From NCBI RefSeq assembly GCF_024449025.1, contig NZ_JAHLKM010000001.1:1-64000 (forward strand): a stretch of DNA of 64,000 nucleotides, written 5' to 3'. Positions 32,759-61,112 of the stretch are shown piece by piece. The DNA comes from Natronomonas aquatica. Its GTDB lineage: Archaea > Halobacteriota > Halobacteria > Halobacteriales > Haloarculaceae. Each line of letters opens with the position of its first letter. Position 1 is the stretch's first letter. The translations under genes were made by a program, and so were the position numbers. Below the pieces are notes generated by a model. The model was not told the DNA's origin, searched no databases, and saw nothing but the letters and a program-made list of their open reading frames with translations.

Positions 32759-32776
32759 TTTCTCGCTTCGGTCGGT

Positions 32777-32968: not shown

Positions 32969-33071
32969 AGTCTTTCACCCAATTTTTGTATAAAGCTTCT
33001 GGCCGATTTGGCAGACCACATCGCTCGGCGTCGCTTCGGGTGAAATCACGGGAAAACACCGGAGAACGGAA

Positions 33072-39137: not shown

Positions 39138-39240
39138 CCGGGACGGGACCAGCATGCCCGTGTCCTGACCGATCGCCGGCGGTCCGCGAACGGGAGTGTG
39201 GCGGACGGGCCGTCGGGCGGCGATTCCCACCTGTTTGCCC

Positions 39241-45217: not shown

Positions 45218-45553
45218 GTGCCGCCGAAAGATCACGACCGCGATACCGTCGAGCGCAGGCTCGACGCCGTCGAACGTGCCCTGACCGACGAGGAACCGAT
45301 CGAACGAGACGACCGGCTGGCGGAACTGGAAACGCGGATCGCGGAACTGGAGGCCGCCGTCCAGGCGCTCCGGGGGTACATCGGTTCGGTCCGGGCGGTC
45401 AACGAGGAGATCGAACAGCGGGCCGACCGCGCGCTACGGACGGCCGAAGCCGTCGAGCGACACGTCGCCCCCGGGGAGGTCGACGACGCCGACGATGGCG
45501 GCGACGGAAGGGACGGAACGTCCCCGCTCGTCCGACTCCGGAACCGGCTGTGA
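45218..45553 (+). CDS. Coiled-coil protein of a pilus-like secretion locus (DUF7310-type)
   Basis: 111 residues. A heptad-rich segment runs from about 10 to 85 (LAELETRIAELEAAVQALRG), then an Asp/Gly-rich tail. No membrane helix. First gene of a locus of eight co-oriented genes with overlapping ends. I recall haloarchaeal annotations of DUF7310/7311 in front of the secretion ATPase. I infer a cytoplasmic scaffold or regulator of the machine. GTG start. Confidence 0.7.
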   Translation: MPPKDHDRDTVERRLDAVERALTDEEPIERDDRLAELETRIAELEAAVQALRGYIGSVRAVNEEIEQRADRALRTAEAVERHVAPGEVDDADDGGDGRDGTSPLVRLRNRL

Positions 45554-45978
45554 TCCGGGTCGTCCTGGCAGTCGTCGTCTCCGCTGCGCTTTTCGGGCTC
45601 GGCCTCCCGGCCGCCGAGCGGGTTGATCGGGAGCGAAACGCCGCACTCGCGACCGACGAACTCGAGTCGGTCGGCGACGCCGCAGAGCGGCTCGTAACCG
45701 AGAACGATCCGATCGCTCCGGACAGGAAGCCGGCCGCGACGACGGTCGTCGTCGACGTTCCGGAACCGACGTTCGCGAACCGTGGTCGGGTCCGGATCCG
45801 TGACGACGAACTGCACTGGGAACCGGCTGGCGGGCGGAACCATACCGTCGATCCGCCCGTTCCGATACGGGTCAAGACACCGATCGTGGCGGCCGACCGT
45901 CTCCGCCTCCGGCTCTCGTTCGTTCGGATCGACGGCGCCGCCGTCGTGTTCGCCCGCCCGGTGGGACCGGAGGTTTAA
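45550..45978 (+). CDS. Membrane-anchored protein of the secretion locus (DUF7311-type)
   Basis: 142 residues. One N-terminal helix (about 3-20) is followed by a beta-rich domain (VVVDVPEPTFANRGRVRI, RDDELHWEPAGG, RLSFVRIDGAAVVFAR). Pilin-like in general layout, although a cleavage site is not obvious. GTG at 45550 overlaps the preceding TGA by four bases. Function unknown. Confidence 0.68.
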   Translation: MIRVVLAVVVSAALFGLGLPAAERVDRERNAALATDELESVGDAAERLVTENDPIAPDRKPAATTVVVDVPEPTFANRGRVRIRDDELHWEPAGGRNHTVDPPVPIRVKTPIVAADRLRLRLSFVRIDGAAVVFARPVGPEV

Positions 45979-46003
45979 ATCCGAAGCCGCGGCCAGACGC
46001 CCC
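45969..46003 (+). promoter_or_regulatory. Promoter block P1 of the secretion locus
   Basis: GGAGGTTTAAAT, then 9 bases, then CGGCCAGACGCCCC directly before the GTG at 46004. Identical spacing and 31 of 41 identical bases (including the first start-codon positions) to a block at 49456. TATA centre to start is 28 bases. Confidence 0.6.
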
Positions 46004-47788
46004 GTGTTTGCCCGACTGCTGTCATCGGATGCCGACTGTAGCTGTGAGCCGACGTTCGAGGCCGACCGGCTCCGGGTCGAAAGCGACGGCTGTCCCGGAG
46101 CGGGGCGGCTCACCGAGGAGCCGGCGTGTCGACAGACCGTAATCGAGGCGCTGGAGCGACAGGACGTCGAGTCGGTCTGTACACGAGCGGACGGGTTCGA
46201 GCGGGCCTACGAGGACGGGGCCGCCGGCCTGCTCGTCGCCGCCGGCCGTTTCGCCGACGCCGTCGGGTTCCACGACAGAGCGCTTGCCGAGAGGGCGCGG
46301 GAGGATCCGCTCGGCGCCGCGGAAGCGGCTGTCGGCCGCGAGGAGCGGCTCGCCCGACTCGTCGCGGATACGGGACTTTCGGCGTTTCTCGGCGCCGACT
46401 ACGCGACGGCGTTGCGCCCACACGTCGGGCCGACGGTTGCCCGGTCGCGGATCGCGACCCGGCCGCCCGCCGGCGTGACGCTCGTCGACCGATACGAACT
46501 CGACACCGGAGCGGTGATCCGCAAGTACGGTGGCGATCCGATCGGAACGTACCACCTCACGCCCGCCGAACACCGGCTCGACGCCGACGCGACGGCGACG
46601 CTCGCGGCCGCCCACCGTCGGCTGGCCCGTGGGGTGGTCACCGGCGGCGAGCGGGCCCCCTCACGCGCCGTGCGGTCGGTCGCGGACGACGACCAGCCCG
46701 TCGGGACACTCGCCGCCACGCTCACCAAACACACCCGCGGGCTCGGCGTCCTCGAGGACTGCTTTGCCGACCCGGACATCACGGACGCCTTTGCGACCGC
46801 GCCGGTGACGGAAAACCGGATCCGCGTCCGCTGTGACGGCGAGACGCTCCGGACGAACGTGCGACTCACCGAGGCGGGTGCCGCAGCGCTCGCCTCGCGG
46901 TTCCGGAGATCGAGCGGACGGGCGTTCTCGCAGGCCGATCCGACCCTCGCCGCGACGGCCGACGCCTCCGGCCGCCGGATCCGGGTCGCCGGTGTCACCG
47001 ATCCGGTCAGCGACGGCACGGGGTTCACGTTCCGCGCCCACGACGAGTCGGCGTTTCGGCTGGCCGATCTGGTCGACAACGGGACGCTTCCGGCCGGATC
47101 CGCCGCGTTTCTCGCGGTCGTGACCGCACGCGGGGCGGCGACGCTTCTGGCCGGCGCACGCGGCGCCGGAAAGACGACGCTGCTCGGCGCACTGCTGTGG
47201 GAGATTCCGGCCGACATCCGGACGGTCGCCATCGAGGATACACCCGAACTCCCGGTCTCGGAGTTACAGACTGAGGGTCGAGACGTCCAGCCGCTCCGGG
47301 TTTCGACCGAGGGCGGCGCGTCGATCGAGGCGACCGAGGCGCTCCGGACCGCCCTCCGGCTCGGGGACGGAGCCCTGGTCGTCGGCGAGGTCCGCGGCGA
47401 GGAGGCACAGGTGCTCTACGAAGCGATGCGTGTCGGGGCCGCCGACGGGACCGTCCTCGGGACGATCCACGGCGGCGACGGCGAATCGGTTCGCGAGCGC
47501 GTCGTCACCGATCTCGGCGTCCCGGAGTCGGCCTTCGCGGACACGGATCTCGTCGTGACGGTCGAGGCCTACGACGAGGGCGGCGGACGGAAACGACGAC
47601 TCAGGGCGATCGAAGCGGTCCGGCGGGGAGCTACCGGGCTCGGATTCGACAGCCTCTATGACGCCGACGGCGGGATCGATCGGCTGACCGAGGAGGATAC
47701 GCTCGAACCGTTCTGCGGGCCGATGGAGGAGCCGCCGGACGTGCGTCGAGAGATCGAACGCCGGCAGGCCGAACTGGAGGGAAGATAG
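46004..47788 (+). CDS. Type II/IV secretion ATPase (PilB/VirB11-like)
   Basis: 594 residues. The N-terminal ~70 residues are Cys-rich: CSC, then DGCPG, PACRQ and ESVCT, perhaps a zinc site. The middle domain is alpha/beta, and the C-terminal ATPase has Walker A GARGAGKT at 384-391, the Asp box EDTPELPVSE, Walker B near residue 460 (ALVVGEVRGEE) and the His box GTIHGGDG. It powers assembly of pili or secretion of proteins. GTG start is fixed by promoter spacing. The TadC-like gene follows two bases after the stop. Confidence 0.88.
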   Translation: MFARLLSSDADCSCEPTFEADRLRVESDGCPGAGRLTEEPACRQTVIEALERQDVESVCTRADGFERAYEDGAAGLLVAAGRFADAVGFHDRALAERAREDPLGAAEAAVGREERLARLVADTGLSAFLGADYATALRPHVGPTVARSRIATRPPAGVTLVDRYELDTGAVIRKYGGDPIGTYHLTPAEHRLDADATATLAAAHRRLARGVVTGGERAPSRAVRSVADDDQPVGTLAATLTKHTRGLGVLEDCFADPDITDAFATAPVTENRIRVRCDGETLRTNVRLTEAGAAALASRFRRSSGRAFSQADPTLAATADASGRRIRVAGVTDPVSDGTGFTFRAHDESAFRLADLVDNGTLPAGSAAFLAVVTARGAATLLAGARGAGKTTLLGALLWEIPADIRTVAIEDTPELPVSELQTEGRDVQPLRVSTEGGASIEATEALRTALRLGDGALVVGEVRGEEAQVLYEAMRVGAADGTVLGTIHGGDGESVRERVVTDLGVPESAFADTDLVVTVEAYDEGGGRKRRLRAIEAVRRGATGLGFDSLYDADGGIDRLTEEDTLEPFCGPMEEPPDVRREIERRQAELEGR

Positions 47789-47790
47789 CA

Positions 47791-49467
47791 GTGTTCGAAG
47801 GGCCGGTTCGACGGCTCGAACGACTGTCACCGCGGTCGTCGGTGCCGGATTCCGTCCGGGACGTCGAGCCGTTCATCGATAGCGATCCCGAGAGGATCGT
47901 CGCCGTGACCGACGGGATCGGCGCCGTCGTCGGGCTCTGTCTCGGGGTGGCCGTCGTGCTCGTCGGCGCGCCGTCGCTGCTTCTCGTCGCGTTGGCCGTC
48001 GGCTACGGGAGCGCGCTCCTCACGCGGGGCGGGATCGTCGCGGTCGGGAACGCACGGCGGAGCCGAACGCTCGGGACGGCGCCGACGATCGTGAGCCGCG
48101 CCGTCCTCCGGATGCGGATCATGCCGACTGCCGAGGGAGCAGCCGAGTTCGCCGCCGGGACGGACGGTCGGCTCGGGGACCGACTCGCCGATCACGTCGC
48201 CCGCGCCCGCGGGACGCCGTTTTCGGGGTTGAACTCGTTCGCGGATACCTGGCGGGAGCGCTTCCCGGCGCTCCACCGCTCGATAACGCTCGTGGAGGCC
48301 GCTGCCGCCGCACCACCCGAGGAGCGCGATCGGACGCTCGATAGATCGATGGACGCGATCCTCGATGGGACGCGGGATCGAGCGACCGACGCGGCCGACT
48401 CGCTGCGCGGTCCGTCGACCGCGGTGTATGCCTTCGGCGTCCTCCTGCCGCTTGCGCTCGTCAGCGTATTGCCCGCTGCGGGAGCCGCGGGGCTCGAAGC
48501 AACGCTTTCGGTCATCGTCGTCCTGTACGACGTCCTGCTCCCGGCTGGACTCGTCTGTGTCGGCGGCTGGCTGCTCGCGAAACGGCCGGTCGCGTTCCCC
48601 CCGACGGCGGCGGGCGAAGACGCTACACGCCTGTTTTTCTCGGGCGCTGTCGCCGCTGTCGCCGGCGGGATCGGCTGGATCACGGCATCCCTCGTGTTCG
48701 CCCCATGGACGCCGCCGCTTGCGGCGCTCGGCTTCGGGATCGGGGGCGGACTCTTTGTCCGATACCGACCGGTGGTATTGGTGCGGGAGCGGACCGACGA
48801 ACTCGAGGAGGCGTTGCCGGACGCGCTCTATCTCGTCGGGCGACGGGTCGCCGACGGGATCGCCGTCGAGCGGGCCGTCGCAGACGCCGCCGCGGAACTC
48901 GAAGGGGTCGCCGGCGAGACGTTCGAGGCGGCCGCCAGACGACAGCGCCAGCTCCGGGTCGGCATCGAGACAGCCTTCGTCGGCGACCACGGGGCGCTCG
49001 AGGCGATCCCGAGCCAGCGGGCCGAGAGCGCGGCCCGGCTGCTCGGGATGGCCGCCGGCGCCGGTCCGCCGGCCGGTCGGGCGCTCATCGAGACGGCGGA
49101 TCACCTCGACGAACTACAGCGCGTCGAACGGGAGGCCAGACGGAGTCTCGGGCGTGTGACATCGACGCTTTCGAACACGGCGGCGTTCTTCGGCCCGCTC
49201 GTCGGCGGCGCCACCGTCGCACTCGCCGACAGCGTCGGGACGACAGAAGCGCTCGACGGCAGTACACCCGAGACGGCCGGGCTCGGGCTCGCGATCGGCG
49301 TGTACGTCCTGCTCCTTTCAGTGATACTCACCGGTATCGCGACCGGGCTACAGCGCGGGCTGGATCGAGCGACGGTCGGTTACCGGGTCGGCGCCGCGCT
49401 CTGTACGGCGACCGTGACGTATCTCGTCGCCGTCACGGTGACTGCCGCCGTCTCCGGAGGTTTATAA
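47791..49467 (+). CDS. Type II secretion system F / TadC-like integral membrane protein
   Basis: 558 residues with about eight predicted membrane helices: 44-80, 210-240, 248-265, 280-312, 480-520 and 530-556. Two helical cytoplasmic T2SSF domains (about 95-200 and 330-470) carry the typical helical pairs, the second with LPDALYLVGRRVADGIAVERAV (quoted in part). The protein forms the membrane platform above the ATPase. GTG start, two bases after the ATPase stop. Partner of the preceding gene. Confidence 0.85.
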   Translation: MFEGPVRRLERLSPRSSVPDSVRDVEPFIDSDPERIVAVTDGIGAVVGLCLGVAVVLVGAPSLLLVALAVGYGSALLTRGGIVAVGNARRSRTLGTAPTIVSRAVLRMRIMPTAEGAAEFAAGTDGRLGDRLADHVARARGTPFSGLNSFADTWRERFPALHRSITLVEAAAAAPPEERDRTLDRSMDAILDGTRDRATDAADSLRGPSTAVYAFGVLLPLALVSVLPAAGAAGLEATLSVIVVLYDVLLPAGLVCVGGWLLAKRPVAFPPTAAGEDATRLFFSGAVAAVAGGIGWITASLVFAPWTPPLAALGFGIGGGLFVRYRPVVLVRERTDELEEALPDALYLVGRRVADGIAVERAVADAAAELEGVAGETFEAAARRQRQLRVGIETAFVGDHGALEAIPSQRAESAARLLGMAAGAGPPAGRALIETADHLDELQRVEREARRSLGRVTSTLSNTAAFFGPLVGGATVALADSVGTTEALDGSTPETAGLGLAIGVYVLLLSVILTGIATGLQRGLDRATVGYRVGAALCTATVTYLVAVTVTAAVSGGL

Positions 49468-49490
49468 CTAAAGGGTCGGCCAGACGTCCC
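49456..49490 (+). promoter_or_regulatory. Promoter block P2 of the secretion locus
   Basis: GGAGGTTTATAAC, then CGGCCAGACGTCCC directly before the ATG at 49491. Near copy of the block at 45969, with the same distance from TATA to start. It overlaps the 3' end of the TadC-like gene. Confidence 0.6.
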
Positions 49491-49958
49491 ATGTTCGAGG
49501 CCCCGCTCGATGCGTGGTACGTCTGGATCGGGCTCGCGGCCGTCAGCGGCGCAACGCTCGGAGTCGCGGGCGGTCTCCCGTCGGCGGTACCGCCTGACGC
49601 CGACGGGAGCGCACGGACCGTCGATAGCGTCGCCGCAAGCGATCACGCGGCTGTCGAGAAACATCCGCTTTCGAACGCGAAGACAGTCCGTGTCGGCACC
49701 GACTCGGTATCGCTTCGGGGCCCCGGCGGAACGGCACACGCGGCGTTCGGATACGGACCCGTGACACCTGTTTCCAGCGATTCGAAGCTCGATGCCGTCC
49801 TCCACGGTGAGCCGCCGGGGGCAGTCTTCGTGACGCCCTCGGCGTTCGAACACGCTGCGCGAAAGGCGCGCGAATCCGAACCGCACTGGAAGGAGACGGA
49901 CCGGCTCCTCGTCCGTCGCGTCAACTGGGAGGGAACCGATGTCGTCCTCGTCGGATAA
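49491..49958 (+). CDS. Membrane-anchored subunit (DUF7283-type)
   Basis: 155 residues. One N-terminal helix (about 8-28: WYVWIGLAAVSGATLGVAGG) precedes a soluble domain of alpha/beta character. No Cys or catalytic motif. Downstream of the TadC-like protein in a haloarchaeal pilus-like locus; the DUF number is from memory. The next gene begins within its last 20 bases. Leaderless ATG. Confidence 0.65.
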   Translation: MFEAPLDAWYVWIGLAAVSGATLGVAGGLPSAVPPDADGSARTVDSVAASDHAAVEKHPLSNAKTVRVGTDSVSLRGPGGTAHAAFGYGPVTPVSSDSKLDAVLHGEPPGAVFVTPSAFEHAARKARESEPHWKETDRLLVRRVNWEGTDVVLVG

Positions 49959-50337
49959 AGCACAGACCGAACCGCTGGCGGCGCTCGTCGCCGTCTTCGC
50001 GCTCGGTCTCGGCCTGTCGCTGTACGCCGGCGTCCTCGATACGACGCTCCCGTTGCTCTCGAGCGACAGCGAGATCACGCCGGCCGTGGCGGACCGGCTC
50101 GTCGCCGAAAGCTCCTCGTTCGGTGTTCTCGACCCGCCGATCGCCGACGCCGTCGCCGCAGCACGTCCGACCGGCTACGGACTGAACGCAACGGTGCGTG
50201 CTGAAGGTTCGGTCTGGACCGGCGGCCCCCCACGCGTCGACTCCGCCGACTGTACCGTCCGTTCGGTCAGCGTCCGAATCGCCCCCGGACAGGTCCGCCC
50301 GGGGCGATTGGAGGTGTGTGTATGGCCCGTGCAGTGA
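49939..50337 (+). CDS. Pilin-like protein
   Basis: 132 residues. The N-terminus has a short charged leader (SSSSDKA), then QTEPLAALVAVFALGLGLSL: a basic residue plus Ala in front of a polar position and Glu near +3, then a hydrophobic helix. This looks like a type IV prepilin leader, cleavable by PibD. A C-terminal beta region contains two Cys (ADCTVR, EVCVWP). The reading frame overlaps the preceding gene by 20 bases and the next by 16. Confidence 0.62.
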   Translation: MSSSSDKAQTEPLAALVAVFALGLGLSLYAGVLDTTLPLLSSDSEITPAVADRLVAESSSFGVLDPPIADAVAAARPTGYGLNATVRAEGSVWTGGPPRVDSADCTVRSVSVRIAPGQVRPGRLEVCVWPVQ

Positions 50338-51107
50338 GTACGGTCCTCGACGTGTCGGTCTGTCTGTTGCTCGTCGGCGTCGCGGTAACGACGCTCGTGT
50401 TCGCGGTCCCGGGAGCGGACGAACGATCGGACTCCGAGCGGGATACGGTCGCGAAATCGATCGGTACCGTTACCGCGTCGGTTCCGGCTACCGACGGGCG
50501 GCAAACACACGATACGCTGGCGGGACACCTGACAGCGGCGGCGATCGTCGGCGCATCCTACGACGGCGAGCGGGTCGGGGCATCGACGTACCCGGACGCG
50601 GTTCGGCGGACGGTTCGAAGGGATATCCCCGAGCGGACCCACATCACCGCCCGGTGGCGGCCGTATCCCGAAGCGTCCCTGCGGGGGCAGCTCACGGTCG
50701 GGCCCGAGCCGCCGTCGACGGCCGACGTGTCGGTGAATCGGTGGGAGATCGATAGCGGGCTACGGGAGCCGCGTTCGGACAGGTCGTTCGAGGCGATCGC
50801 GGCTTCGTTCGCGACAGCGTACCTGAGGCGGCTGTTCCCGCCGGAACGGACCCGGATCGCGCTCGTCGATGCCCGGACCGCACAGCGGACGGCGGCCCGG
50901 TATCGGGCCGTCGCCGGGACACTCGGGGTGGATATCGAGGACGAGCTCGCGGACGCGTCGTCCCGACGGGCGAACGAACGGCTCGCGGACGCACTCACAG
51001 ACCGGCTCGAATCGGATCTACGGGAGAGCTACGGATCGCCGGCCGAGGCCGAAAGCGACTGGACGGGAAACAACGTCGAACTCGTCGTCAGGCGGTGGGA
51101 AGCGTGA
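50322..51107 (+). CDS. Pilin-like membrane protein
   Basis: 261 residues. N-terminus MARAVSTVLDVSVCLLLVGV: a basic-Ala site followed by a hydrophobic helix (to residue ~30), as in minor pilins. The rest is a large extracellular domain with an Arg/Ala-rich helical half. ATG at 50322 overlaps the preceding gene; GGAGG lies 8 bases ahead (50309-50313). The gene ends by overlapping the next start (GTGA). Confidence 0.6.
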   Translation: MARAVSTVLDVSVCLLLVGVAVTTLVFAVPGADERSDSERDTVAKSIGTVTASVPATDGRQTHDTLAGHLTAAAIVGASYDGERVGASTYPDAVRRTVRRDIPERTHITARWRPYPEASLRGQLTVGPEPPSTADVSVNRWEIDSGLREPRSDRSFEAIAASFATAYLRRLFPPERTRIALVDARTAQRTAARYRAVAGTLGVDIEDELADASSRRANERLADALTDRLESDLRESYGSPAEAESDWTGNNVELVVRRWEA

Positions 51108-53539
51108 ACGACAGAGGAAGAGTCCCCTTCGCGCTCGTCGGCGTACTGCTCGTGCTCACGAGCACGACGCTCGCCGTGACGGTCGTTCCCCAGACCGGCG
51201 AGGAACGTCCCGATATCGACCGGGCGATGGACGACGCGACCGCGATCGCGACGACGGAACTGCGGGCGGCAGCCGACGAGGCCGCAACGAAGACCGCGTC
51301 GGCGCCCGTCACGCGACCCGCCGACACCGTCGCCGGTCAAGCGCTTGACGACGACCGTCCGTTCAGGGACGCGCTCAGGCTTCGGATCTATTTGTACGCG
51401 ATCGAACGGCTCGACGGAACCGAAACGACCCACGGGGATACGACGGTCCGCGTCTCGCTTCCGAGCGTCGAACCGACGACGCGGGGATATCGGACCGCAA
51501 TCGAGCGGGTCGAAATAGAGCGAGCCGGCGCGGACGAGGCCGCGCTGTCGGTCGAGATCGACGGTGTAACGCTTTCGGCGATCCGAGGCGGACGGACCGT
51601 CGAGACGATCGAGCGATCGCCGACGTTCACCGTCGCGAACCCGGCGCTTTTGCTCCATGACCGCACCGAGCGGTTCGAAACGCGGGCGAACGCGCCGGTG
51701 ACTCGTGAGGGACTCGGCAGGCGACTCACCGCCCGGCTGTATCCGATCGCCTGGACGCGGGGGTACGCTCAATACGGTGGTGCGCCCATCGCGACCGTCC
51801 TCGGGACGCGCCACGTCGAACTCGCGACGAACGACGCGCTGTTGGCCGAACAGCGAGCAGCATTCGGCGAGGCGGATCCGGACGGCCACCGGGGGACCGC
51901 AGCCGCCGGCCGGCGCGTCGCGACGACCGACATGCTCGTCGGGGTCGGGGGCGACGAGGAGTGGCAGGACGTCGTTTTAGAGACTGCCGACGATATCGGT
52001 CCGGACCCGCCGGCCGACCAGCCCGTCGGCACCTGGCGGGACGAACCCGACGATCCGACCGTCACGGTCGGCGTCAACGCGTCGGCCGATCGTGCGTTCG
52101 CCGACCTCGTCGGCGTGACCGGCGATGACGAGCTGGCGACGGTCATCGAGCGGGCCCACACGGTCGAGGCCCGCATCGAGACGGAGACGACGCGAAGGCG
52201 ATGGGTCCGCGGCAACGAGACGACGGTAACGAGAGACGTCCGGAAGCGGACCTACCGGGTGGGAGTGGCCGTCCAGGCTCGCACCGAACCGATCGAGGGC
52301 GTTCCCCGCGGTCGGCTCGACGGTCACCTACAGTCGGCCGCCGACCGCGCGGCCGAGAGAGCGCTTGCGGATGCCGGCGGGTTCCGGGTCGTCGCCGAAA
52401 CCGCGGCTGACGGGCGAACGGATTGGCCGGAAGCGACGGCGAAATCGCGGCCGGCATTCGACCGCGAAACCGTCGAATCCGAACTGGCGACGCTCCGGGA
52501 GGAAACCCGGGACGTGTCGGTGACGCTGCCAGCGACGGCGGTCGGGACCGGACGGGCGGACCCCGCCCGGCGGCTGCGGGAGAAACTCTCCGAAGACGGA
52601 CGGTTTTTCGCTCCCCCCGGTCCGACGCCGGCAGAACGGACCCTCCGTGCCGGACAGCGCCGGTATCTCGACGCGCTGGGGGCGGAACTGCGGGAACGGG
52701 AGTCGATCGACGACAGGACCGGAAACGGGATCGAGGACGCACTCGGCGAGTACCTCGGCACCGACCGACTCGACGGGGCCCTCGCGGCGCACAGAGCCGC
52801 CCGTCGTCCCGACCCTGAACCGCTGTCCGATCCGGCCGGCAACCTCTCGCTTGCGGTCGATACCGCGCCGTCGTATCTCACGACGCGAGCGGTGTCCCGC
52901 GACCGGATCGACGAACGCGGCGGCGGAACGGTGTATCCGCTCTCGACACGGACGGTGAACCTCTTTACGTCACCACACGATCAGGTCGCGAGCGGAATCG
53001 TCGGACGGATCCCGTTTCTCGGTACCGAACACGTCCCCCTGTCGACGGCGGCCCGAACGCTGGCGGCGGTCGACGAGGGCCCGAAGCGCGATCGGCTCGA
53101 AGGCGAGGTCGAAGCCGCGACAGCGCACGTACGCGGCGAACTGATCGCCGAGATGGTCGACGCCGGCGTCGCCGAACACGAGGCCCGGGCGGCGCTCGCT
53201 CACGACGGCTCGAGTGCGACCGAGGCGTTGCGGCTCACGGACGGAACGACGATCGAGCGGGCGTCGACGGAGGTTTCGGGGACGGTTTCGGCCGATCGGC
53301 TCGAACTGCGGCTCCGAACGAGACTCGAGACAGTACTCGAAGAAGAATCGGCCCGACCGCGGAAGGCGACAACGACAGCCGTCCAGGAGCGGACCCGAAC
53401 CGAGTACAGCGACGAACTCGAGAACGTTCTCGCCGACGGGATCGAGACGGGCGGCGAACGTGCCCGGAAACGGGCCCTCGGCGAGCGGCTCGGGGCGCTC
53501 CCGGCCGGGTTGCCGATCGCCCCGGTTCCGGGGTACTAG
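51104..53539 (+). CDS. Large pilin-like surface protein, C-terminally truncated (DUF7286-type)
   Basis: 811 residues. It begins VNDRGRVPFALVGVLLVLTS: R-G just before a hydrophobic helix is a plausible prepilin-type site. The long ectodomain is rich in helix and beta and has no Cys. The frame ends at TAG (53537-53539), where related sequence logic calls for TGG (GYWYATVNV); TGA follows seven codons later at the attachment site of island 2. The missing ~90 residues lie in frame at 61098-61371. So the protein here is shortened by a nonsense change and an integration. Confidence 0.72.
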   Translation: MNDRGRVPFALVGVLLVLTSTTLAVTVVPQTGEERPDIDRAMDDATAIATTELRAAADEAATKTASAPVTRPADTVAGQALDDDRPFRDALRLRIYLYAIERLDGTETTHGDTTVRVSLPSVEPTTRGYRTAIERVEIERAGADEAALSVEIDGVTLSAIRGGRTVETIERSPTFTVANPALLLHDRTERFETRANAPVTREGLGRRLTARLYPIAWTRGYAQYGGAPIATVLGTRHVELATNDALLAEQRAAFGEADPDGHRGTAAAGRRVATTDMLVGVGGDEEWQDVVLETADDIGPDPPADQPVGTWRDEPDDPTVTVGVNASADRAFADLVGVTGDDELATVIERAHTVEARIETETTRRRWVRGNETTVTRDVRKRTYRVGVAVQARTEPIEGVPRGRLDGHLQSAADRAAERALADAGGFRVVAETAADGRTDWPEATAKSRPAFDRETVESELATLREETRDVSVTLPATAVGTGRADPARRLREKLSEDGRFFAPPGPTPAERTLRAGQRRYLDALGAELRERESIDDRTGNGIEDALGEYLGTDRLDGALAAHRAARRPDPEPLSDPAGNLSLAVDTAPSYLTTRAVSRDRIDERGGGTVYPLSTRTVNLFTSPHDQVASGIVGRIPFLGTEHVPLSTAARTLAAVDEGPKRDRLEGEVEAATAHVRGELIAEMVDAGVAEHEARAALAHDGSSATEALRLTDGTTIERASTEVSGTVSADRLELRLRTRLETVLEEESARPRKATTTAVQERTRTEYSDELENVLADGIETGGERARKRALGERLGALPAGLPIAPVPGY

Positions 53540-53544
53540 TACGC

Positions 53545-53559
53545 GACGGTCAACGTCTG
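53545..53559 (+). repeat. attL of island 2
   Basis: GACGGTCAACGTCTG, identical to 61098-61112. It lies in the 3' coding region of the large pilin-like gene (codons T-V-N-V-W). Confidence 0.8.
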
Positions 53560-53614
53560 AATGTAGACTATACCAAAATTCTATAAGTGAGGATTCCGAA
53601 AGACAAAATATCTC

Positions 53615-54115
53615 ATGACTGACCGAAAGCAATTCAATATCAAAATCAAGTCTGAGAAGGCTGAGAACTGGGAGAACTATTTAGAAGATAATCCTCGGTA
53701 TAGCTCTATGACTGATTTAATCCGGCAATCGGTTGAGAAAGAAATATCTGATTCTAACGGTTCCCCGTCACCAACTCAACAAGCTCCAAGCAAGGATATC
53801 GCCGAACTAAAGGAAATGTTCAATCAATCCCAGCAACAGCTTACCTCTCTTAATCATACGGTGGAAGATTTACAAACAGAAATCGAAGGGAGAGGACCAC
53901 CGGACAAACATATCCGTTCGGAAATCTTTGCGGCTCTACCAGTTAAGAACGTAAGTAGTCCACAATCTCCGCATAAAATCGCTGATAAAATCGGTGGTCC
54001 GGTGGATCACGTTACGGTTTCGAATGTACTTGAGGAAATGAACGAAGAAATGGGTGTTGTGAAGGAAAGTATTGGCTCTGAACCCGGGGCTGTCCGCTAT
54101 TATAAGGAGGATTAG
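53615..54115 (+). CDS. RHH regulator with winged C-terminal domain, upstream of integrase
   Basis: 166 residues. Residues 4-45 form an RHH-like fold (KQFNIKIKSEKAENWENYL). A coiled coil is at 65-92. Residues 97-166 (IRSEIFAALPVKN, SPHKIADKIGGPVDHVTVSNVLEEM) look like a winged helix. Two DNA-binding parts in one chain suggest a regulator of integration or copy number. The stop lies three bases before the integrase ATG, and GGAGG overlaps its end. Confidence 0.65.
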   Translation: MTDRKQFNIKIKSEKAENWENYLEDNPRYSSMTDLIRQSVEKEISDSNGSPSPTQQAPSKDIAELKEMFNQSQQQLTSLNHTVEDLQTEIEGRGPPDKHIRSEIFAALPVKNVSSPQSPHKIADKIGGPVDHVTVSNVLEEMNEEMGVVKESIGSEPGAVRYYKED

Positions 54116-54118
54116 ACT

Positions 54119-55147
54119 ATGGTAGAAACTTTCACCACTGGGAAACGGGGGAGCGAAGAGATAGAAGTACCTGATGAAATTGCTCACGTCCTCCATGACT
54201 TGGAAACTAAACTAGAGTATAACTCATACCGGAAGACAAAGACAGGGATACTCCATTACCTGAAATTTTGCCAAGAGAAACAGGGAACGTTTCCTACGGA
54301 TGGTAATTCGGAGATGCATGCACGAATGGTTAACAGCTATTTTGAGGCTATTAGGAACGAAGGATACGCTAGAGAGACGATTTCTGGTCGGTGGACATGG
54401 GTGTCTCGTCTCTATCAACAGCTATCTTCTGGCCTCCTGAATGGTTATGCCTTCCTCGAAGAGGATCCATTTGAACTGCTTGAAGAAAGAGAAAACAAAA
54501 CCAAACAAAATTATCTCCCCAAAGAAAGCCGAGAATCCAAGGACAAGCGACAGTATTATGTCTCAAAAGACGACTTGGAAACACTCTGTGATAATATAAC
54601 ATCTCCCGCTTTCAGGAACGAAACTTTGCTTCGGCTAATGTGGACCACCGGATTACGGTGTTCGGAAATTGTTCATCTCAAAGTGGATGAGATCAATCTC
54701 GAAGAAAATCGGCTTGAGAAAATCTATGTCTCGAAAACTGACGAAAAAGTTTCTTTGTGGATACCAGAGACAACGGCTTGGTATCTAGATCAATATATCA
54801 ACGGTGGATACCGGGATGCATTCTCGTATGCTGAAGAATCAGACTATCTCTTTCTCACAAATAGAGCTGAGAAGATGCATCGACAAACCCCGAATAAGGT
54901 AATCAAGAGAACAGCAGAGAAAGCGGGTATGCAGGAAGTGATAGGTCAAACCCAAGATGAGGGAAATAGATACAAGATTACAGCCCATGCCTTTCGAAGA
55001 GGACACGGTATGCACTTATGGAAAGACGGACAGACTATTACGACAATTTCAGATAGGCTTAATCATTCCAGTGCTAAGCAAACCCGCGAATATCTACCTA
55101 TCTCTGTTGAGGATTCTCAAGAGAAGCTAGAGTCGGTTTCCTTCTGA
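54119..55147 (+). CDS. Tyrosine recombinase/integrase
   Basis: 342 residues. A SAM-like N-terminal core-binding domain (20-120) is followed by the catalytic domain. Arg180 (TTGLRCSE), Lys204-206 region (YVSKTD), His290/Arg293 (HAFRRGHG), His316 (LNHSSA) and Tyr325 (TREYLPI) form the R-K-H-R-H-Y set. All are present, so the enzyme should be active. It likely cuts within the 15-bp repeat. Translation is coupled to the upstream regulator by GGAGG at 54105-54109. Confidence 0.92.
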   Translation: MVETFTTGKRGSEEIEVPDEIAHVLHDLETKLEYNSYRKTKTGILHYLKFCQEKQGTFPTDGNSEMHARMVNSYFEAIRNEGYARETISGRWTWVSRLYQQLSSGLLNGYAFLEEDPFELLEERENKTKQNYLPKESRESKDKRQYYVSKDDLETLCDNITSPAFRNETLLRLMWTTGLRCSEIVHLKVDEINLEENRLEKIYVSKTDEKVSLWIPETTAWYLDQYINGGYRDAFSYAEESDYLFLTNRAEKMHRQTPNKVIKRTAEKAGMQEVIGQTQDEGNRYKITAHAFRRGHGMHLWKDGQTITTISDRLNHSSAKQTREYLPISVEDSQEKLESVSF

Positions 55148-55157
55148 CCATCTTGCG

Positions 55158-55200
55158 TTTAACCAACACACTCCTACTCAAACCGCTGTTGTTGGTTAAA
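55158..55200. repeat. 11-bp inverted repeat after the integrase gene
   Basis: TTTAACCAACA (55158-55168) pairs perfectly with TGTTGGTTAAA (55190-55200) around a 21-base loop. It could be a terminator, or a protein-binding site. Confidence 0.55.
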
Positions 55201-55892
55201 TACATAGGGAGAGGATCTACTGCTACTCTCAGAAACAACTAGCGCTAAACTGTTATAGTCAATTCTAAGGTAAATATATGATACTCTAAACGGCTTTCTA
55301 TGACCTTCGAGAGTAGATTGTAGGGGAAACATCATAGAATGGATTTGAGGGTACAAAATGTGTGTCTATGACGGTTCTGAGAGTCAAGAGAGTATGAGAG
55401 AAGGGTGAACCAAAGAATCGACAGAGAATCGAAGAACAATCAGCAATTGAATCAAGAGAGAATCAAGAGAAGAGAATCAAGAAGAGAAACAGAAAACAGA
55501 TTTGTGTTTGTTTGATTGACTCGTCTTATAAAGAGGATCAACTTATTATTTGGAAATTGAAATGTCTGTTTTCGAGCAAAAAATCTGTCCGTATCACTCT
55601 TTCTAACCCGAGATAAATTCCTGTGAGCTTAGAAAATGCATACGAATATGCTTCAAATCAAAGAGTATAGACCTTCTACTCTCTGCTTAGACTAAACAAC
55701 TTTGTAACCTTAGCAAAAACCACCGGAGGTAGAATCCGGTGGGGAAATGCTGGAAACGGTGGCAATTGGCCCCTAATGTCATGGTGAGCTTGGGAGCCAT
55801 TTTACTTTGTCATATTGAGGATATAAGTAATTTGGGCCGTCTAAAATCTATTCAAAATTCATATACTCAAATCCGTAAAAGGACAATTTTTC
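55201..55892. other. Long non-coding stretch with purine-rich repeats
   Basis: No gene supported. From 55380 to 55500 the plus strand is almost wholly purine with repeats of GAATCAAGAGA, GAATCGA and AGAGAA. Two copies of TCTATGAC followed by a GAGAGT element occur at about 55297 and 55363. The AT-rich region 55500-55740 has no frame of note. A replication origin or regulator-binding region is possible. Confidence 0.45.
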
Positions 55893-56012
55893 TCAGACAA
55901 TACCACCAACCGAAAGAATCCAGTATGCTATGAACCCACAGAGAAGCAAAAACGCTAATCCCATACCAATAGCCAACCCCCATCCTATTGTCTCCACTAT
56001 ATCCTGAATCAT
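55893..56012 (-). CDS. 39-residue single-helix membrane peptide
   Basis: ATG at 56010-56012 to TGA at 55893. The peptide starts MIQDIVETIGWGLAIGMGLA and has one strong hydrophobic helix over about residues 12-33. It lies 33 bases after the stop of the lipoprotein gene on the same strand, so the two are likely co-transcribed. Small single-helix proteins often support a larger membrane or surface partner. Probable, not proven. Confidence 0.5.
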   Translation of the reverse strand: MIQDIVETIGWGLAIGMGLAFLLLCGFIAYWILSVGGIV

Positions 56013-56045
56013 ATTCTATTAATCAGACATGAATAATGAAGGACT

Positions 56046-57344
56046 CTATTCTATATTAACCTCCCAACTTCCATCTGCATTAATATCTACCCAACCTACT
56101 CCGTCGAAGCTGAATGTTGTCTCTCCGTCAAATTCTCCAATTTCGTTAAATACTGTCTCAGCAAAACTCCCTTCCATCGGATAGACTTGAACTTGGAAGT
56201 TACTTTCCCCAGAATGAGAACCATCTGCTACGTGAGTTCCACCAAATTCTATTGGACCCACTACATCTGGTTCACTACCAGAGAGTGACTTTGGTAGGTC
56301 TTCACCACTACCTGAACGGGGTTGATGAATATCTATACTCCAGCTTCCATCTGCATTAACGTCTAACATATATTCTCCAGAATCAATTAAATCAGCTTGT
56401 GAGCCGTCAAAATCACCAATTACGTTGATGAAGTTATCATCAAATTCTGAATCATCTACAAGAGACACTTGGAAGTTAGATTCTCCACTATGAGTAGCTT
56501 CTACAACAGTTAATCCACCTTCAATTTCCACGCCGTCTTCCACAGATTGACCACTACCAGAGAAAGATTGAGTAGCTGGTTCATCAATAGTAATTTCAAT
56601 TGAACCTGTTATTTCGTCATCCTCAGAAGTGAATCTATATTCTAATTCACCTTCTGACCAAAGCTCAGTATTAATCCCTACTGTAATAGCTGTACTCTCA
56701 CTAGAATCTAGAGTAATCTGCGATTCATCAACAAGTTCATCATCTAAATAATACTCAAGAGTCTGTGTCCCTTCCTGATCACCTGTATTTTCAATAGTAA
56801 CTTCAAGTTCTACTTCTTCACCATAGTTTACAGTTACACCATCTGGTTCCACATCTGTAAATTCAAAAACTGCTTCACCGGGTTCCTCAATTGTGATTGA
56901 CCCACTTAGCTCATCATCTTCAGTTAGAATCGTATATTCTAAATTGCCTGTCGTGTTGTCGGCTTCAATATCCTCGGGGCTATTCCATCTGGCCCCAAAT
57001 CGTACACCCTCTCCGGGTTCAAGCTCTACAGTTTCTTCATAAGAGTACCATTCCGAGCTTATTTCAATTGTTTGTTCACCGGCTATATCTCCAGTATTCT
57101 CTACATTTGCTCCGATAATAACTTCTTCATCCTGAGAGTAGGTTTCTCCATCAATTATTTCAGAAAGCTCAAAAACTGCTTCACCTTCTTGTTCTTGCTG
57201 TCCAGACTCGGATCCTTGTTCCTCTGAATCATCCTCTTCGGTTTGATCTTGATCTTCTGATTCAGGTTCTTCTGTTTCCCCACTACACCCAGCTAACGCG
57301 ATCGACCCCCCAAGGCCAATCAGGACTTTACGCCGGTTTGGCAT
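56046..57344 (-). CDS. Tat lipoprotein with CARDB-like and repeat domains
   Basis: 432 residues. RR at 4-5 and the lipobox LAGC (Cys20) give a Tat lipoprotein signal. A Glu/Gln-rich linker runs to ~60. Two Ig/CARDB-like beta domains follow (about 60-150 and 155-255), and the C-terminal 170 residues are two related repeats, each with THSGESNFQV or DGSHSGESNFQVQV and an end like DVNADGSWSIDI or DINADGSWEVNI. It should sit on the cell surface. Divergent from the HTH gene. No enzymatic motif. Confidence 0.72.
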   Translation of the reverse strand: MPNRRKVLIGLGGSIALAGCSGETEEPESEDQDQTEEDDSEEQGSESGQQEQEGEAVFELSEIIDGETYSQDEEVIIGANVENTGDIAGEQTIEISSEWYSYEETVELEPGEGVRFGARWNSPEDIEADNTTGNLEYTILTEDDELSGSITIEEPGEAVFEFTDVEPDGVTVNYGEEVELEVTIENTGDQEGTQTLEYYLDDELVDESQITLDSSESTAITVGINTELWSEGELEYRFTSEDDEITGSIEITIDEPATQSFSGSGQSVEDGVEIEGGLTVVEATHSGESNFQVSLVDDSEFDDNFINVIGDFDGSQADLIDSGEYMLDVNADGSWSIDIHQPRSGSGEDLPKSLSGSEPDVVGPIEFGGTHVADGSHSGESNFQVQVYPMEGSFAETVFNEIGEFDGETTFSFDGVGWVDINADGSWEVNIE

Positions 57345-57458
57345 ACGTTCTCTATTCCCTCATTTAACTATAAACTTTGGCTACTAATCCGTAGTTATTT
57401 AATTACTAATTAGTGTTTGCAGAATTATAAGTCAGGGGGATTAAAGATAGATAGTAGC

Positions 57459-57722
57459 ATGGAAATCACCATGCGAGAGCGGGCGGATTGGATGACCCAG
57501 CTAGATGACGAAATTCTAGAACTTCTATATTCATCTGAACTTGTACTAAGTCCGTCTATTATCGCTTTCAACATTGATCGGAGCCGGGAGGGAGTAGCAG
57601 ATCGAATAGCTACACTAACCAACTATGGTCTAGTTAAGAAGGTTGAACGGGGAAAATACCGAATCACCGAAGAAGGTGGGCAATATCTTCAGGGAAAATT
57701 AGACGCAAGCAGATTAGAGTGA
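57459..57722 (+). CDS. PhiH1-repressor-like winged-helix protein
   Basis: 87 residues, or 83 from the next ATG (57471). ADWMTQLDDEILELL begins the HTH, followed by SPSIIAFNIDRSREGVADRIATLTNYGLV and KYRITEEGGQYLQG (quoted in part), as in haloarchaeal phage phiH1 repressors. AATTATAAG at 57422-57430 is about 32-33 bases before the first ATG. Divergent from the lipoprotein gene, so it probably controls both and sits in the shared AT-rich region. Confidence 0.72.
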   Translation: MEITMRERADWMTQLDDEILELLYSSELVLSPSIIAFNIDRSREGVADRIATLTNYGLVKKVERGKYRITEEGGQYLQGKLDASRLE

Positions 57723-57777
57723 AAGCTAGATAGACTCTACCAAACATTTAATAACCGACTCCATCTGGAAATTGCAT

Positions 57778-58551
57778 ATGGGCGGGGATTCCTCCGAAGA
57801 AAGCAGTGATGACAGTGGTATAAACATTACACTAGGTAAGATTATCGCATATCCAGTTGGCATACTGCTACTACTTTCAGGATTAGGAGGCTTTACACAG
57901 AGTGTTGCTGCGGGCGTCTTTCTACTATTAGCTGGAATTCTATCACTCCCAATTGTTCGGTCACGGTTAAAACAGTCGCAAGGTATTGCTATCAACCGAT
58001 GGGCAACAGTCGGTATTGTGATCGTGTTAGTAATTGCTGGTGGTTCAATGATTGGGGGGACTGGGAATGGTGATACTTCTAGCGGCGAGACTGAAGAAAT
58101 AACTCACCAGATGGGAGAGTCTTTTACTGTCGGTGACGATAGTGAATCAATTCAATATACCGTTCAAAATGCGTATGAGACAAGCTACATTGACTCCGGA
58201 CTTGAGCAAGAAGAGGCAGATGGAAAGTTCGTGATCATTATTCTTTCAATGGAAAATGTGGGTGATGAATCAGTTGATATAACCACTAACCACTTGACAA
58301 TAGTTGATTCTCAAGATCGTACATTTGACGCAAGTTCGGAGCAATCTATTTGGGTTGAACAAGACGCCCGATTCCAAGTTGAAGGAATTACTTTTGATCA
58401 ACTACAGCCAGGAGTTACGACCGAGGGAGCCGCTGTTTTTGAAGTACCTGAAGAAGAATCAGAACTTCAGTTTAAAATAGAACCAACAGGTGTGTTCTCT
58501 AATGCTGATGAACACTATGTAGAGCTAGAAACAGAGCAATTAGAAGAATGA
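57778..58551 (+). CDS. Membrane protein with DUF4352-like C-terminal domain
   Basis: 257 residues. Three membrane helices at about 22-38, 43-60 and 76-95 follow a short Ser/Asp-rich leader. Residues 115-250 form a beta-sandwich-like domain: YTVQNAYETSYID, GKFVIIILSMENVGDESVDI, and PGVTTEGAAVFEVPEE (first and last typical of DUF4352). Leaderless: ATTTAATA lies about 28 bases before the ATG. Probably the surface domain is exported. Function unknown. Confidence 0.7.
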   Translation: MGGDSSEESSDDSGINITLGKIIAYPVGILLLLSGLGGFTQSVAAGVFLLLAGILSLPIVRSRLKQSQGIAINRWATVGIVIVLVIAGGSMIGGTGNGDTSSGETEEITHQMGESFTVGDDSESIQYTVQNAYETSYIDSGLEQEEADGKFVIIILSMENVGDESVDITTNHLTIVDSQDRTFDASSEQSIWVEQDARFQVEGITFDQLQPGVTTEGAAVFEVPEEESELQFKIEPTGVFSNADEHYVELETEQLEE

Positions 58552-58629
58552 TCATTAAAATAGATTCTTTGATTTAGGGTAAGTACTCTGCCTAATCTTT
58601 ATACTCATTCTCTATCGGGTGGAAATATA

Positions 58630-59001
58630 ATGAAACGAAAAAATTACTTAGCGACTATCGGAACAACAGCTAGCCTTGTTAGTTTTTCAGGTTGTTTAGT
58701 TTCAACTTCAGAAGTAGATGGTGATCTTGTTGTAGATGATACAGTGATAGGTAATACTCAGTTTACTTTTGAAGCTAATGAGGAAGATATGATCAATATC
58801 TGGGGGCATAATACTGAGGGACGGCTTGCTATTATTAGTATAGAAGGCCCTGAATTAAAAGTAGGTTCATTACAGATAGAAACAGAAAAAAGCTCTTCGT
58901 TTAATGCTATATCTACTGGTACACATGTTGCTATTATCGCACAATCTGGCTTTGGTGGTGAAGTAGAGGTACAGATTGGTGTAGAAAATCAACCTGATTG
59001 A
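58630..59001 (+). CDS. Small lipoprotein
   Basis: 123 residues. A signal of ~20 residues leads to FSGC (Cys22); the basic region is KRK, not a true twin-Arg. The mature part is a beta-rich domain of ~90 residues, with no recognised motif. CTTTATAC at 58597-58604 places transcript start about at the ATG. Follows the DUF4352-like gene by ~80 bases but has its own promoter. Confidence 0.62.
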   Translation: MKRKNYLATIGTTASLVSFSGCLVSTSEVDGDLVVDDTVIGNTQFTFEANEEDMINIWGHNTEGRLAIISIEGPELKVGSLQIETEKSSSFNAISTGTHVAIIAQSGFGGEVEVQIGVENQPD

Positions 59002-59844
59002 AGTATAGATCTTTTGAAAAGCTGTTTTCAGCTATTCATTAGCCATTAATAACAGGTAATACATAGTCAGTTAATAGTTTATTCCCCAAATTTAGAAGGT
59101 AGATCATCTAATACAGTTATATTCTCAATTTAGAATAGGTACAATGTATCTAGTACAGTAATCATCTATATCCCCACAAAACAGTAGTATAAGACAGTAT
59201 AACAGTAATATTGCTTTGCAACGTTATCTCCTATCCCTAGTAAAATACCTAATATAGTGATTTACTTACTGTGTATAGACTCTACTGGAAATGTCTTCGT
59301 TCGCTCACTAGGGGATTTGGTAACTACAATAATACTCTCTTCGCTCTAGATCTCTTTGTAACTATAGATGAATACTCTATAAGTTCCCAACTAGTATTAT
59401 TTATTAATTTAATTCCTTTCTTCTTTTTCCTTCCTTTTCAAAATATACAAAAGTTTTTCCTTCCTTTCTCTTCCTTCATTATTGCTGGCCACAAAGAGCG
59501 ATGTGACCACCAGCTAACAAGCGATACCAAACTAGATCCCAATCTTGAGGAGGAGCCACATAGCGGACGTCGCCGCTGAAGGTACTCAATACTGTGTAGC
59601 TCCCATAATCTGACCATCGTTCCTATTCCGAGAGGTATCCATCGGCTAGAGCAAATGACCCACCAAATTCTGTACTATACAAAGATAATTGAACCTCTAA
59701 GCGAAGTTAGCCACGAACGAGATGGATTTCATCGGAAGACGCAACGAACGGATTCTAAGGTTACTCAGTTTCTTCTCACGAAGACTGATTGGAGTAACTA
59801 GCGGACTAGTTTAATAATGATTGCCTGAGGGCTGTCACATAAGA
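59002..59844. other. AT-rich stretch without a supported gene; imperfect direct repeats
   Basis: Two ~34-bp imperfect direct repeats begin with AATTTAGAA at 59089 and 59127 and share ATCTAxTACAGTxAT, spaced 38 bases apart. A 30-residue frame (59722-59814) and a 102-residue frame (59271-59579) have no recognisable motif, and their codon use is not convincing. A pyrimidine-rich tract runs at 59400-59480. I found no tRNA or clear hairpin. Confidence 0.4.
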
Positions 59845-60933
59845 ATGGATGAAGAGTCGGTTAGAGGATATATCGAACACTCTCAAGAGATTATTAGAGA
59901 CTCTCCTCAAATGGACGAAGCCAATACCAAAGCGGCGATACTCCAACCGGAATTTCTAGATCTTCTCAATTGGAAAATTCCACAGAACACTCAACTGGAG
60001 TATTCCGTAGAAGCATTTGGACAAACCTATAAAGTTGATTATGCTCTGATTTTGGAAGGAACTCCTGTTGCGTTTATAGAGGCAAAAGGGGTTGATACGT
60101 CTCTAACTGAGCGACATGATGAACAGCTTTCATCGTATATGACTAACAAGAATGTTAGCTATGGAATATTAACGAATGGGGAACGGTATCGGTTCTTCCA
60201 ACGACAAGTAGACGGAGCCAATGTGAGTGTACAGCAAGTCGCAGATATACAACTGGAAGATTTAGTAGATCGAATTGCGATTTTGAGAGCATATACTGTT
60301 GATTCAATCCAATCAGGTGAATCTGCGAGAATTCTTGGCCGAATTAACGAGCTACGACAATCACGAAAAACTCTAGAAAGTGAGAAGGACAACTTAGCGT
60401 CTGAAATTACGAATCTACTGACAGAGAGTGTTTCTGATGTTATTTCATCTCCTGTTGAATCCCAAGCCAAAGAGATGATTGATAGAGTTATCACAGACAT
60501 TGAAATGGAGATTGATACAGATGGCAGTAGTTCAACTGTTGAAGCACCTAGCAACACACAACCTGAATCTACTGAAGAACTTTCTGACATAGAGAGTGGA
60601 TATATAGTTCGAATACATGATGCTGGCAACACACTTGCTGAATTTGAAGATGAGATTCAGAGTGATGTAATAGCTGATGCTGTGGATTATCTGATTGAAA
60701 ACGAGAATCTTATTTCAAAAATAGAACCCCTACCCTACATTCCGGGGAGAGAGAAGGCAATAATCAATAACGAACCAGCGTCTCCCCACGATGAAAAGGC
60801 GATGAGGGCTTATCGAGAATTGGCTGGTGGGTACTATCTTGATACTCATGCTAATCAGGACGGGAAGAAGCGTACCATGAGTACTTTAACAGAAGAATGT
60901 GATCTTGAAGTTTCGTTTAGTGGTGAATGGTGA
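59845..60933 (+). CDS. HsdR_N-type PD-(D/E)xK protein
   Basis: 362 residues. An N-terminal helix is followed by KAAILQPEFLDLLNW, then the nuclease core: Asp65 in YKVDYALI, Glu79-x-Lys81 in AFIEAKGV, and Gln94 in EQLSSYM (motif IV). This is the layout of the N-terminal endonuclease domain of type I restriction subunit R. Coiled coil at ~160-215, then a Ser/Thr/Glu-rich linker, then a ~100-residue C-terminal domain. There is no helicase domain and no methylase nearby. A leadered ATG; the in-frame TTG at 59821 is an alternative. Role may be nuclease or binding only. Confidence 0.72.
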   Translation: MDEESVRGYIEHSQEIIRDSPQMDEANTKAAILQPEFLDLLNWKIPQNTQLEYSVEAFGQTYKVDYALILEGTPVAFIEAKGVDTSLTERHDEQLSSYMTNKNVSYGILTNGERYRFFQRQVDGANVSVQQVADIQLEDLVDRIAILRAYTVDSIQSGESARILGRINELRQSRKTLESEKDNLASEITNLLTESVSDVISSPVESQAKEMIDRVITDIEMEIDTDGSSSTVEAPSNTQPESTEELSDIESGYIVRIHDAGNTLAEFEDEIQSDVIADAVDYLIENENLISKIEPLPYIPGREKAIINNEPASPHDEKAMRAYRELAGGYYLDTHANQDGKKRTMSTLTEECDLEVSFSGEW

Positions 60934-61097
60934 TCCTACACGACAGATTAAGAACCATTATATTTGTTTCATAGAATAACATAGTTCTGCTTAATCGAAA
61001 GAAGGGACGGAGGTAGTGATTTTAGAGTGAATTATACAGATAATATTGCTTGTTTCCTCCGTATATTTTGGTAGAATTATTCTACTATCTATAATCG

Positions 61098-61112
61098 GAC
61101 GGTCAACGTCTG
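61098..61112 (+). repeat. attR of island 2
   Basis: Second copy of GACGGTCAACGTCTG. The base after it is G, giving TGG (Trp) in frame with the displaced coding segment, while the copy at 53545 is followed by A, giving TGA. Confidence 0.8.

Follow-up and report, generated by a model that had tools for sequence, protein, structure and literature searches.

The stretch analysed here (the window: 64,000 nucleotides of Natronomonas aquatica, positions 1 to 64,000 of contig NZ_JAHLKM010000001.1 in assembly GCF_024449025.1; source genome G000, 3.21 Mb across 82 contigs) contains at 45218–53539 a compact run of eight genes, encoding in order DUF7310, DUF7311, an ATPase, a TadC-like protein, DUF7283, DUF7285, DUF7284 and DUF7286 (Table 1). 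Each start codon overlaps the preceding stop or lies near it, with overlaps of 20 bases between DUF7283 and DUF7285, 16 between DUF7285 and DUF7284, and 4 between DUF7284 and DUF7286, and all but the ATPase and the TadC-like gene belong to named Pfam DUF families. A first-pass annotation had described four overlapping genes at 49491–53539, downstream of the ATPase and TadC-like genes, and had ascribed prepilin-like N-termini to three of them. Coordinates and Pfam matches agree with this description (all four products exceed the Pfam cut-off of 27 bits), and the motifs KA/QTEPL, RA/VSTVL and RG/RVPF are present in DUF7285, DUF7284 and DUF7286 respectively, the slash marking the putative cleavage position; DUF7283 has none.

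Table 1. Features of the eight-gene locus, of the element inserted in it, and of a gene found 3′ of DUF7286 in other genomes. Positions are those of the window unless a locus is named.
Feature	Position	Strand	Details
DUF7310, cytoplasmic coiled-coil protein (PF23991)	45218..45553	+	76.8 bits against a cut-off of 40; seen in 69/81 loci
DUF7311, N-terminal membrane helix and small domain, without prepilin motif (PF23993)	45550..45978	+	101 bits
Promoter of ATPase gene, TTTAAA-N8-CGCGGCCA-N8-GTG	45974..46003	+	similar stretch directly 5′ of 45218 (DUF7310)
VirB11/T2SSE-family ATPase, N-terminal C-x-C...C...C domain	46004..47788	+	PF00437, 70.7 bits, E 1.2e-19
TadC/PilC-like membrane platform, 558 residues	47791..49467	+	PF00482 weak, E 0.033, below cut-off
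Promoter of DUF7283–7286 unit	49461..49490	+	TATA-like box 5′ of DUF7283
DUF7283, N-terminal membrane helix, without prepilin motif (PF23954)	49491..49958	+	180.8 bits
DUF7285, small prepilin-like protein, KA/QTEPLAAL (PF23956)	49939..50337	+	105.3 bits
DUF7284, prepilin-like protein, RA/VSTVLDV (PF23955)	50322..51107	+	230.3 bits
DUF7286 body, large prepilin-like protein, RG/RVPFALV (PF23957)	51104..53539	+	748.9 bits; early in-frame TAG
Left copy of 15-bp direct repeat at insertion site	53545..53559	+	
Integrated element within DUF7286 gene	53545..61112	.	GC (guanine plus cytosine) about 0.40 over most; flanking 15-bp repeat
Tyrosine integrase of element	54119..55147	+	PF00589, 89.9 bits
Right copy of 15-bp direct repeat	61098..61112	+	
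Severed C-terminal domain of DUF7286	61096..61371	+	113.4 bits to PF23957 positions 908–1000; tblastn
Secreted-looking protein 3′ of DUF7286	L124:12379-12984, L125:12030-12560, L126:12119-12706, L129:3135-3743, L131:13556-14152		

Gene order at this locus is strongly kept. Among 81 loci, comprising 80 fetched by way of DUF7286 and the window itself, 67 contained the complete set of eight in an unchanged order, although in five of them one gene was read in pieces. In ten of the remaining 14 (L043, L044, L046, L047, L055, L082, L097, L101, L116 and L117) the upstream genes lay out of view or DUF7310 and DUF7311 went undetected, and four (L068, L074, L091 and L102) were rearranged or had no ATPase nearby. 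Since these loci had been found through DUF7286, the families were also sought by independent profile searches of 79 Halobacteria genomes, which recovered DUF7286 in 58, DUF7283 and DUF7285 in 55 each, and DUF7284, DUF7311 and the ATPase subfamily in 54 each, the line around the subfamily having been drawn by us in a wide score gap (E 2.0e-213 or better against 8.4e-51 or worse). The five DUF families and the ATPase subfamily were all present in 53/79 genomes, all absent from 20 and mixed in six (G010, G012, G045, G056, G064 and G067), an all-or-none pattern in 73/79. Two observations had been named beforehand as refuting the proposal, uncleaved Sec signals and a lack of co-occurrence with the ATPase, and neither was made. 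Co-occurrence was nearly complete: the ATPase was found in 54/55 DUF7285-positive genomes and in 0/24 negative ones (Fisher p 2.2e-19, kinship of genomes ignored). The close coupling of the genes and their joint presence with the ATPase are supported. In a larger sample DUF7286 was detected in 187/242 haloarchaeal genomes, about three quarters, and Haloferax volcanii is among the carriers of these families. Some mixed genomes hold fragments only, namely the C-terminal part of DUF7286 in G012, G056 and G067 and part of DUF7283 in G064, and in G044 and G073 only the N-terminal 230 positions of the ATPase were seen; such fragments resemble what is left of a decayed system where the rest of it is missing.

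The N-termini of DUF7286, DUF7285 and DUF7284 carry predicted class III (prepilin) signals, which differ in how strictly they are kept. DUF7286 has R at position −2 in 81/81 loci, and its −1 residue is A in 45 and G in 36, with at least 14 switches between the two on a tree of 79. In DUF7285, [KR][GA] precedes the helix in 78/81 loci (exceptions SG, EA and EA). DUF7284 shows R[AG] directly before the helix in 51/81; the leader is absent in 28 (three of them, L081, L089 and L101, called by eye), and of the two that the script left unclassified one (L075) is masked and the other (L082) was read by eye as RG. All 28 leaderless proteins belong to NCBI Haloferacaceae, where they make up 28/29 loci, the sole exception, L052, keeping a leader (RRG/VSTVVD), and two changes of leader state are needed by parsimony. 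In the leaderless proteins the start codon stands immediately 5′ of TSTVLDV or a variant, where the leader would end. The prepilin-like N-termini of the first-pass annotation are supported, with the signal of DUF7284 absent from nearly all Haloferacaceae loci. DUF7283 and DUF7311 have no prepilin site and begin with the membrane helix itself. The conserved motifs of DUF7286 and DUF7285 are more than chance, and the strict A/G of the one, with the retained [KR][GA] of the other, is difficult to account for if there is no cleavage.

The two remaining core components are of recognisable type. The nearest solved chain to the ATPase is 2oap (E 2.2e-27), followed by CpaF and FlaI; its family motifs are intact, four cysteines (C-x-C...C...C) are invariant in 25 haloarchaeal sequences, and nine methanogen members have extra CxxC pairs. 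Orthologues of the TadC-like protein matched T2SSF in 10/18 cases (best E 2.4e-7), the window protein itself falling below cut-off. By sequence similarity, the pair corresponds to the VirB11/GspE-type assembly ATPase and the TadC/PilC/GspF-type platform of the type IV filament superfamily. The ectodomains had been described as unlike standard pilins, and no recognisable pilin fold emerged from structure prediction, which was run for DUF7284 and DUF7286. The AlphaFold2 model of DUF7284 (mean predicted local distance difference test score, pLDDT, 91.2) combines an N-terminal helix with a mixed alpha/beta ectodomain; none of its 108 Foldseek matches reached E ≤ 0.001, and its highest VIA Z was 5.4, for an 88-residue alignment with ribosomal protein S3. 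That of DUF7286 from locus L039 (mean pLDDT 82.4) has helical and beta-sheet domains; none of its 464 matches reached the same threshold, and its highest Z was 6.3, for an alignment of 87 residues. Such null matches of predicted models speak neither for new folds nor for pilin folds.

The DUF7286 gene of the window is not intact. Its nearest named relatives are from Natronomonas (best segment 65% identical), and homologues continue for about 90 residues past its end; twelve full-length homologues align to about 51113–53557 and then again to about 61090–61368. The 15-bp repeat flanks the intervening stretch, with a tyrosine integrase at its left end, and an in-frame TAG, at a position occupied by Trp in six relatives, ends the gene just 5′ of the insertion site. 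By pattern, 25 homologous genes were recognised as continuous across that site, the remainder being unscored. A mobile element has split DUF7286 into two parts in this one genome, and the machine here is therefore probably impaired or working without a complete cap. A length of over 780 residues had been reported; the protein is indeed large, but this figure describes the damaged gene, intact homologues having about 950–1150 residues and, in methanogens, as many as about 1,380. The C-terminal domain of the protein can be recognised in haloarchaea and methanogens alike. A calcium loop in this domain was considered and dropped, DxDxDG being present in 27/57 haloarchaeal proteins and DxDxDG/N in 0/10 methanogen ones. 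The element itself, about 7.5 kb, AT-rich and sited in the 3′ part of the DUF7286 gene, encodes an HSDR_N-type protein (59821–60933) and CARDB and DUF4352 proteins. A second AT-rich stretch (about 26000–33100, GC 0.46–0.50) lies between tRNA-Arg (25976–26050) and tRNA-His (33072–33143).

The genes are also found beyond haloarchaea, contrary to the initial proposal of a machine specific to that group. By our tally DUF7286 was present in 17/131 non-halobacterial genomes (157 searched in all), whose carriers are taken as methanogens because Methanosarcina acetivorans was positive as a control and they belong to the same phylum. For ten of these 17 genomes the surroundings of DUF7286 were read: the four loci that belong to one family (L124–L127) have DUF7285, DUF7284 and DUF7286 in the haloarchaeal order, two (L129 and L130) have DUF7285 and DUF7284 some kilobases from DUF7286 on the opposite strand, and in the other four DUF7286 alone was detected. 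No relative of the ATPase or of TadC was detected beside DUF7286 in these ten regions; an ATPase of the same subfamily is encoded elsewhere in the genome in 9/10 (382–440 bits), followed by a TadC relative in 9/9, and in G372 (84% complete) the ATPase match reached only 84 bits. The DUF genes of methanogens are thus separate from their ATPase–TadC pair. By our reading, the −1 residue of DUF7286 was A or G in all ten, and a coiled-coil-like gene lies next door in two of the four L124–L127 loci. As a separate observation, a conserved, secreted-looking protein of about 180–200 residues, with a KIGEPFT motif in most, is encoded 3′ of DUF7286 in non-halobacterial genomes, and the one example tested had no Pfam match.

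On balance, the eight genes probably encode a machine of the type IV filament family, most likely a haloarchaeal form of subclade 4F of archaeal type IV pili, with DUF7286 as its tip or cap. In such a machine the prepilin-like proteins would enter the membrane through Sec, PibD would cut after Gly or Ala, and a short filament or pseudopilus would form as the ATPase drives the N-terminal helices through the TadC platform. The likeliest repeating subunit would be DUF7285, at about 130 residues, DUF7286 would show its ectodomain outside the S-layer, and DUF7283 and DUF7311 may act as membrane-side braces, in the way that ArlF and ArlG do in the archaellum. DUF7284 has lost its leader in Haloferacaceae, where removal of the initiator, if it occurs, would leave the same mature N-terminus as the PibD product; the signal is absent from 28/29 loci and cleavage is therefore not needed there.

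Several observations weigh against this reading. DUF7286 has R at +1 in 80/81 loci, a residue unusual at this position in the prepilin-site consensus, and by our reading only 4/10 methanogen DUF7286 proteins have K or R at −2. Neither predicted model had a pilin-fold match, and G045 has DUF7285, DUF7284 and DUF7286 with the ATPase, DUF7283 and DUF7311 undetected. Pfam found no PilA-type major pilin in the operon, stand-alone genes not having been sought, and the gene for the actual filament subunit could lie elsewhere, which is what the text of the 2016 census that named subclade 4F proposes (PMC4858521). Filament and cleavage are predictions, and the function is putative.

One alternative is a static surface complex, in which the N-termini are uncleaved anchors and the ATPase–TadC pair assembles pilins encoded elsewhere. 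The leaderless DUF7284 of Haloferacaceae and the lack of a prepilin motif in DUF7283 and DUF7311 would fit such a complex, as would the assignment of stand-alone PilA-type pilins to subclade 4F in the census text (PMC4858521); nevertheless, the repeated A/G switches at −1 of DUF7286, the near-constant [KR][GA] of DUF7285, and the fact that these genes are linked to the ATPase and present or absent together with it make it unlikely. The promoters of the operon offer a lead to the function of the machine, though no proof. A TATA-like box precedes DUF7283 in 69/79 loci and, by the strict pattern, the ATPase in 24/71 and DUF7310 in 17/69; none was found before DUF7285 (0/81), DUF7284 (0/80) or DUF7286 (0/81), nor before DUF7311 or TadC. 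The promoters of DUF7310, the ATPase and DUF7283 have in common TTTAWD-N8-CGSGRCCA or close variants. This layout occurred 16–21 times per genome in five of six genomes and five times in the sixth (reversed pattern 0–3), and is real, because 79 genomes gave 301 matches against 19 for the reversed pattern. Gene kinds recurring behind it in at least three of the six genomes were TctA permease, Cas4-like, NucS_N, PLD-type, DUF6735 and DUF7382; Pfam checks covered one or two examples per kind, and the others were assigned by likeness of their start.

One function that this company would suggest is that of a pilus for DNA uptake or exchange, which would capture external DNA and cooperate with nucleases at the surface and in the cytoplasm, in a manner similar to that of Ups pili beside the Ced importer in Sulfolobales. 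In some of the six genomes the layout TTTAWD-N8-CGSGRCSA with a start codon, as found 5′ of the three operon units, also precedes genes for a Cas4-like nuclease, a NucS_N and Top1 zinc-ribbon protein, a secreted PLD-type protein, a HerA-like ATPase, a Pilin_N pilin and a prepilin-like DUF7382 protein. However, it also stands before TctA permease and, many times in some genomes, before a structured RNA unrelated to the machine, the match of HerA to CedD is weak (E 0.00095), and genomes without the machine keep the layout too (mean 2.0 matches in 25, against 4.6 in 54 with it, the operon's own included). A regulon dedicated to the machine is accordingly unsupported, and DNA uptake is a weak lead that we hold improbable. 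Its boldest form, in which subclade 4F is the long-missing DNA-capture surface engine of haloarchaea and some methanogens, a giant DUF7286 caps a short filament and binds DNA or cells, and the products of the Cas4-, NucS-, HerA- and PLD-type genes with the same promoter layout process the catch, is more doubtful still. Type II-like secretion, with folded cargo driven across the S-layer by a short pseudopilus, would suit an operon with several prepilin-like proteins of unequal size and no obvious major pilin, but is very unlikely: the unknown cargo first envisaged found nothing in its favour, no linked exoenzyme or cargo gene being seen in flanks that were not surveyed systematically, and we know of no outer-membrane secretin in archaea to push through.

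Two further observations concern the layout. At L188:958-2614 two genes, one for a HerA-like ATPase and one for a prepilin-like DUF7382 protein, diverge from back-to-back copies of the promoter. The structured RNA-like element, at 39130–39254 (+) in the window, comprises the TTTAWD-N8-CGSGRCCA promoter, a two-codon open reading frame (start, one codon, stop), a hairpin and an H-type pseudoknot ending CGCCTGTTCGC, and recurs across loci (L167, L195, L196, L197, L200, L201, L202, L205, L206, L211, L235, L237, L238, L239, L258, L286 and others). In an alignment of 27 copies (30 found, three removed by eye), 7/7 pairs of the pseudoknot change on both sides, 96% of cells pair, and the covariation score is 0.49; when slid, it does not exceed 0.20. 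Copies from ten loci had no Rfam match at E ≤ 1, and the listing of a literature search showed no paper on the element.

The machine is kept in about three quarters of sampled haloarchaeal genomes and in some methanogens, and the literature search found only one census of it: arCOG07564, arCOG02981, arCOG10216 and 'subclade 4F' were found only in PMC4858521, and neither a paper naming DUF7284, DUF7285, DUF7286, DUF7287 or DUF7311 nor an experimental paper on these genes was found. Features that merit testing are a prepilin-like protein as long as about 1,000 residues, the disappearance of one leader in a single lineage, and the occurrence beyond haloarchaea with genes in trans. To our knowledge DUF7286 is one of the largest prepilin-like proteins; loss of the DUF7284 leader while other subunits keep theirs is a natural experiment on the purpose of prepilin cleavage, and Haloferax volcanii, which carries the families, provides a tractable host.

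Among known systems, the archaellum has a related ATPase and platform and, in ArlF and ArlG, accessory proteins with an uncleaved N-terminal helix, but the operon has no archaellin-like protein and its ATPase is of another subfamily. Tad/Flp pili likewise combine a CpaF-like ATPase with a large prepilin-like protein, TadG, beside the small TadE and TadF; here, however, one long TadC-like protein replaces the TadB/TadC pair, and Pfam found no Flp-type family among the operon proteins. The PilB3-C3 and PilB1-C1 pili of Haloferax volcanii differ in having ATPases of clades 2 and 4C and ordinary-sized pilins whose N-terminus is of PilA type. In common with the machine, these adhesion pili have a PilB/PilC core, a haloarchaeal host and PibD-type prepilins (PMC6491452).

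The closest counterpart is subclade 4F of Makarova, Koonin and Albers (2016, PMC4858521), for which the census text describes a Cys-rich N-terminal domain of the ATPase, a TadC partner, a coiled-coil component in the halobacterial locus and presence in methanogens, all common to the machine, with DUF7310 likened by description to the coiled-coil arCOG07564. The difference lies in the subunits: that text proposes stand-alone PilA-family major pilins encoded in trans (arCOG02981 or arCOG10216) and names no protein of about 1,000 residues, although the supplementary tables may list these genes. Taken as a match by described features, as distinct from placement in an ATPase tree, the agreement of the eight-gene machine with subclade 4F appears good. 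Rather than the unrecorded machine first supposed, it is a strongly conserved one, already visible in the 2016 census so far as its text describes it, and not categorically new.

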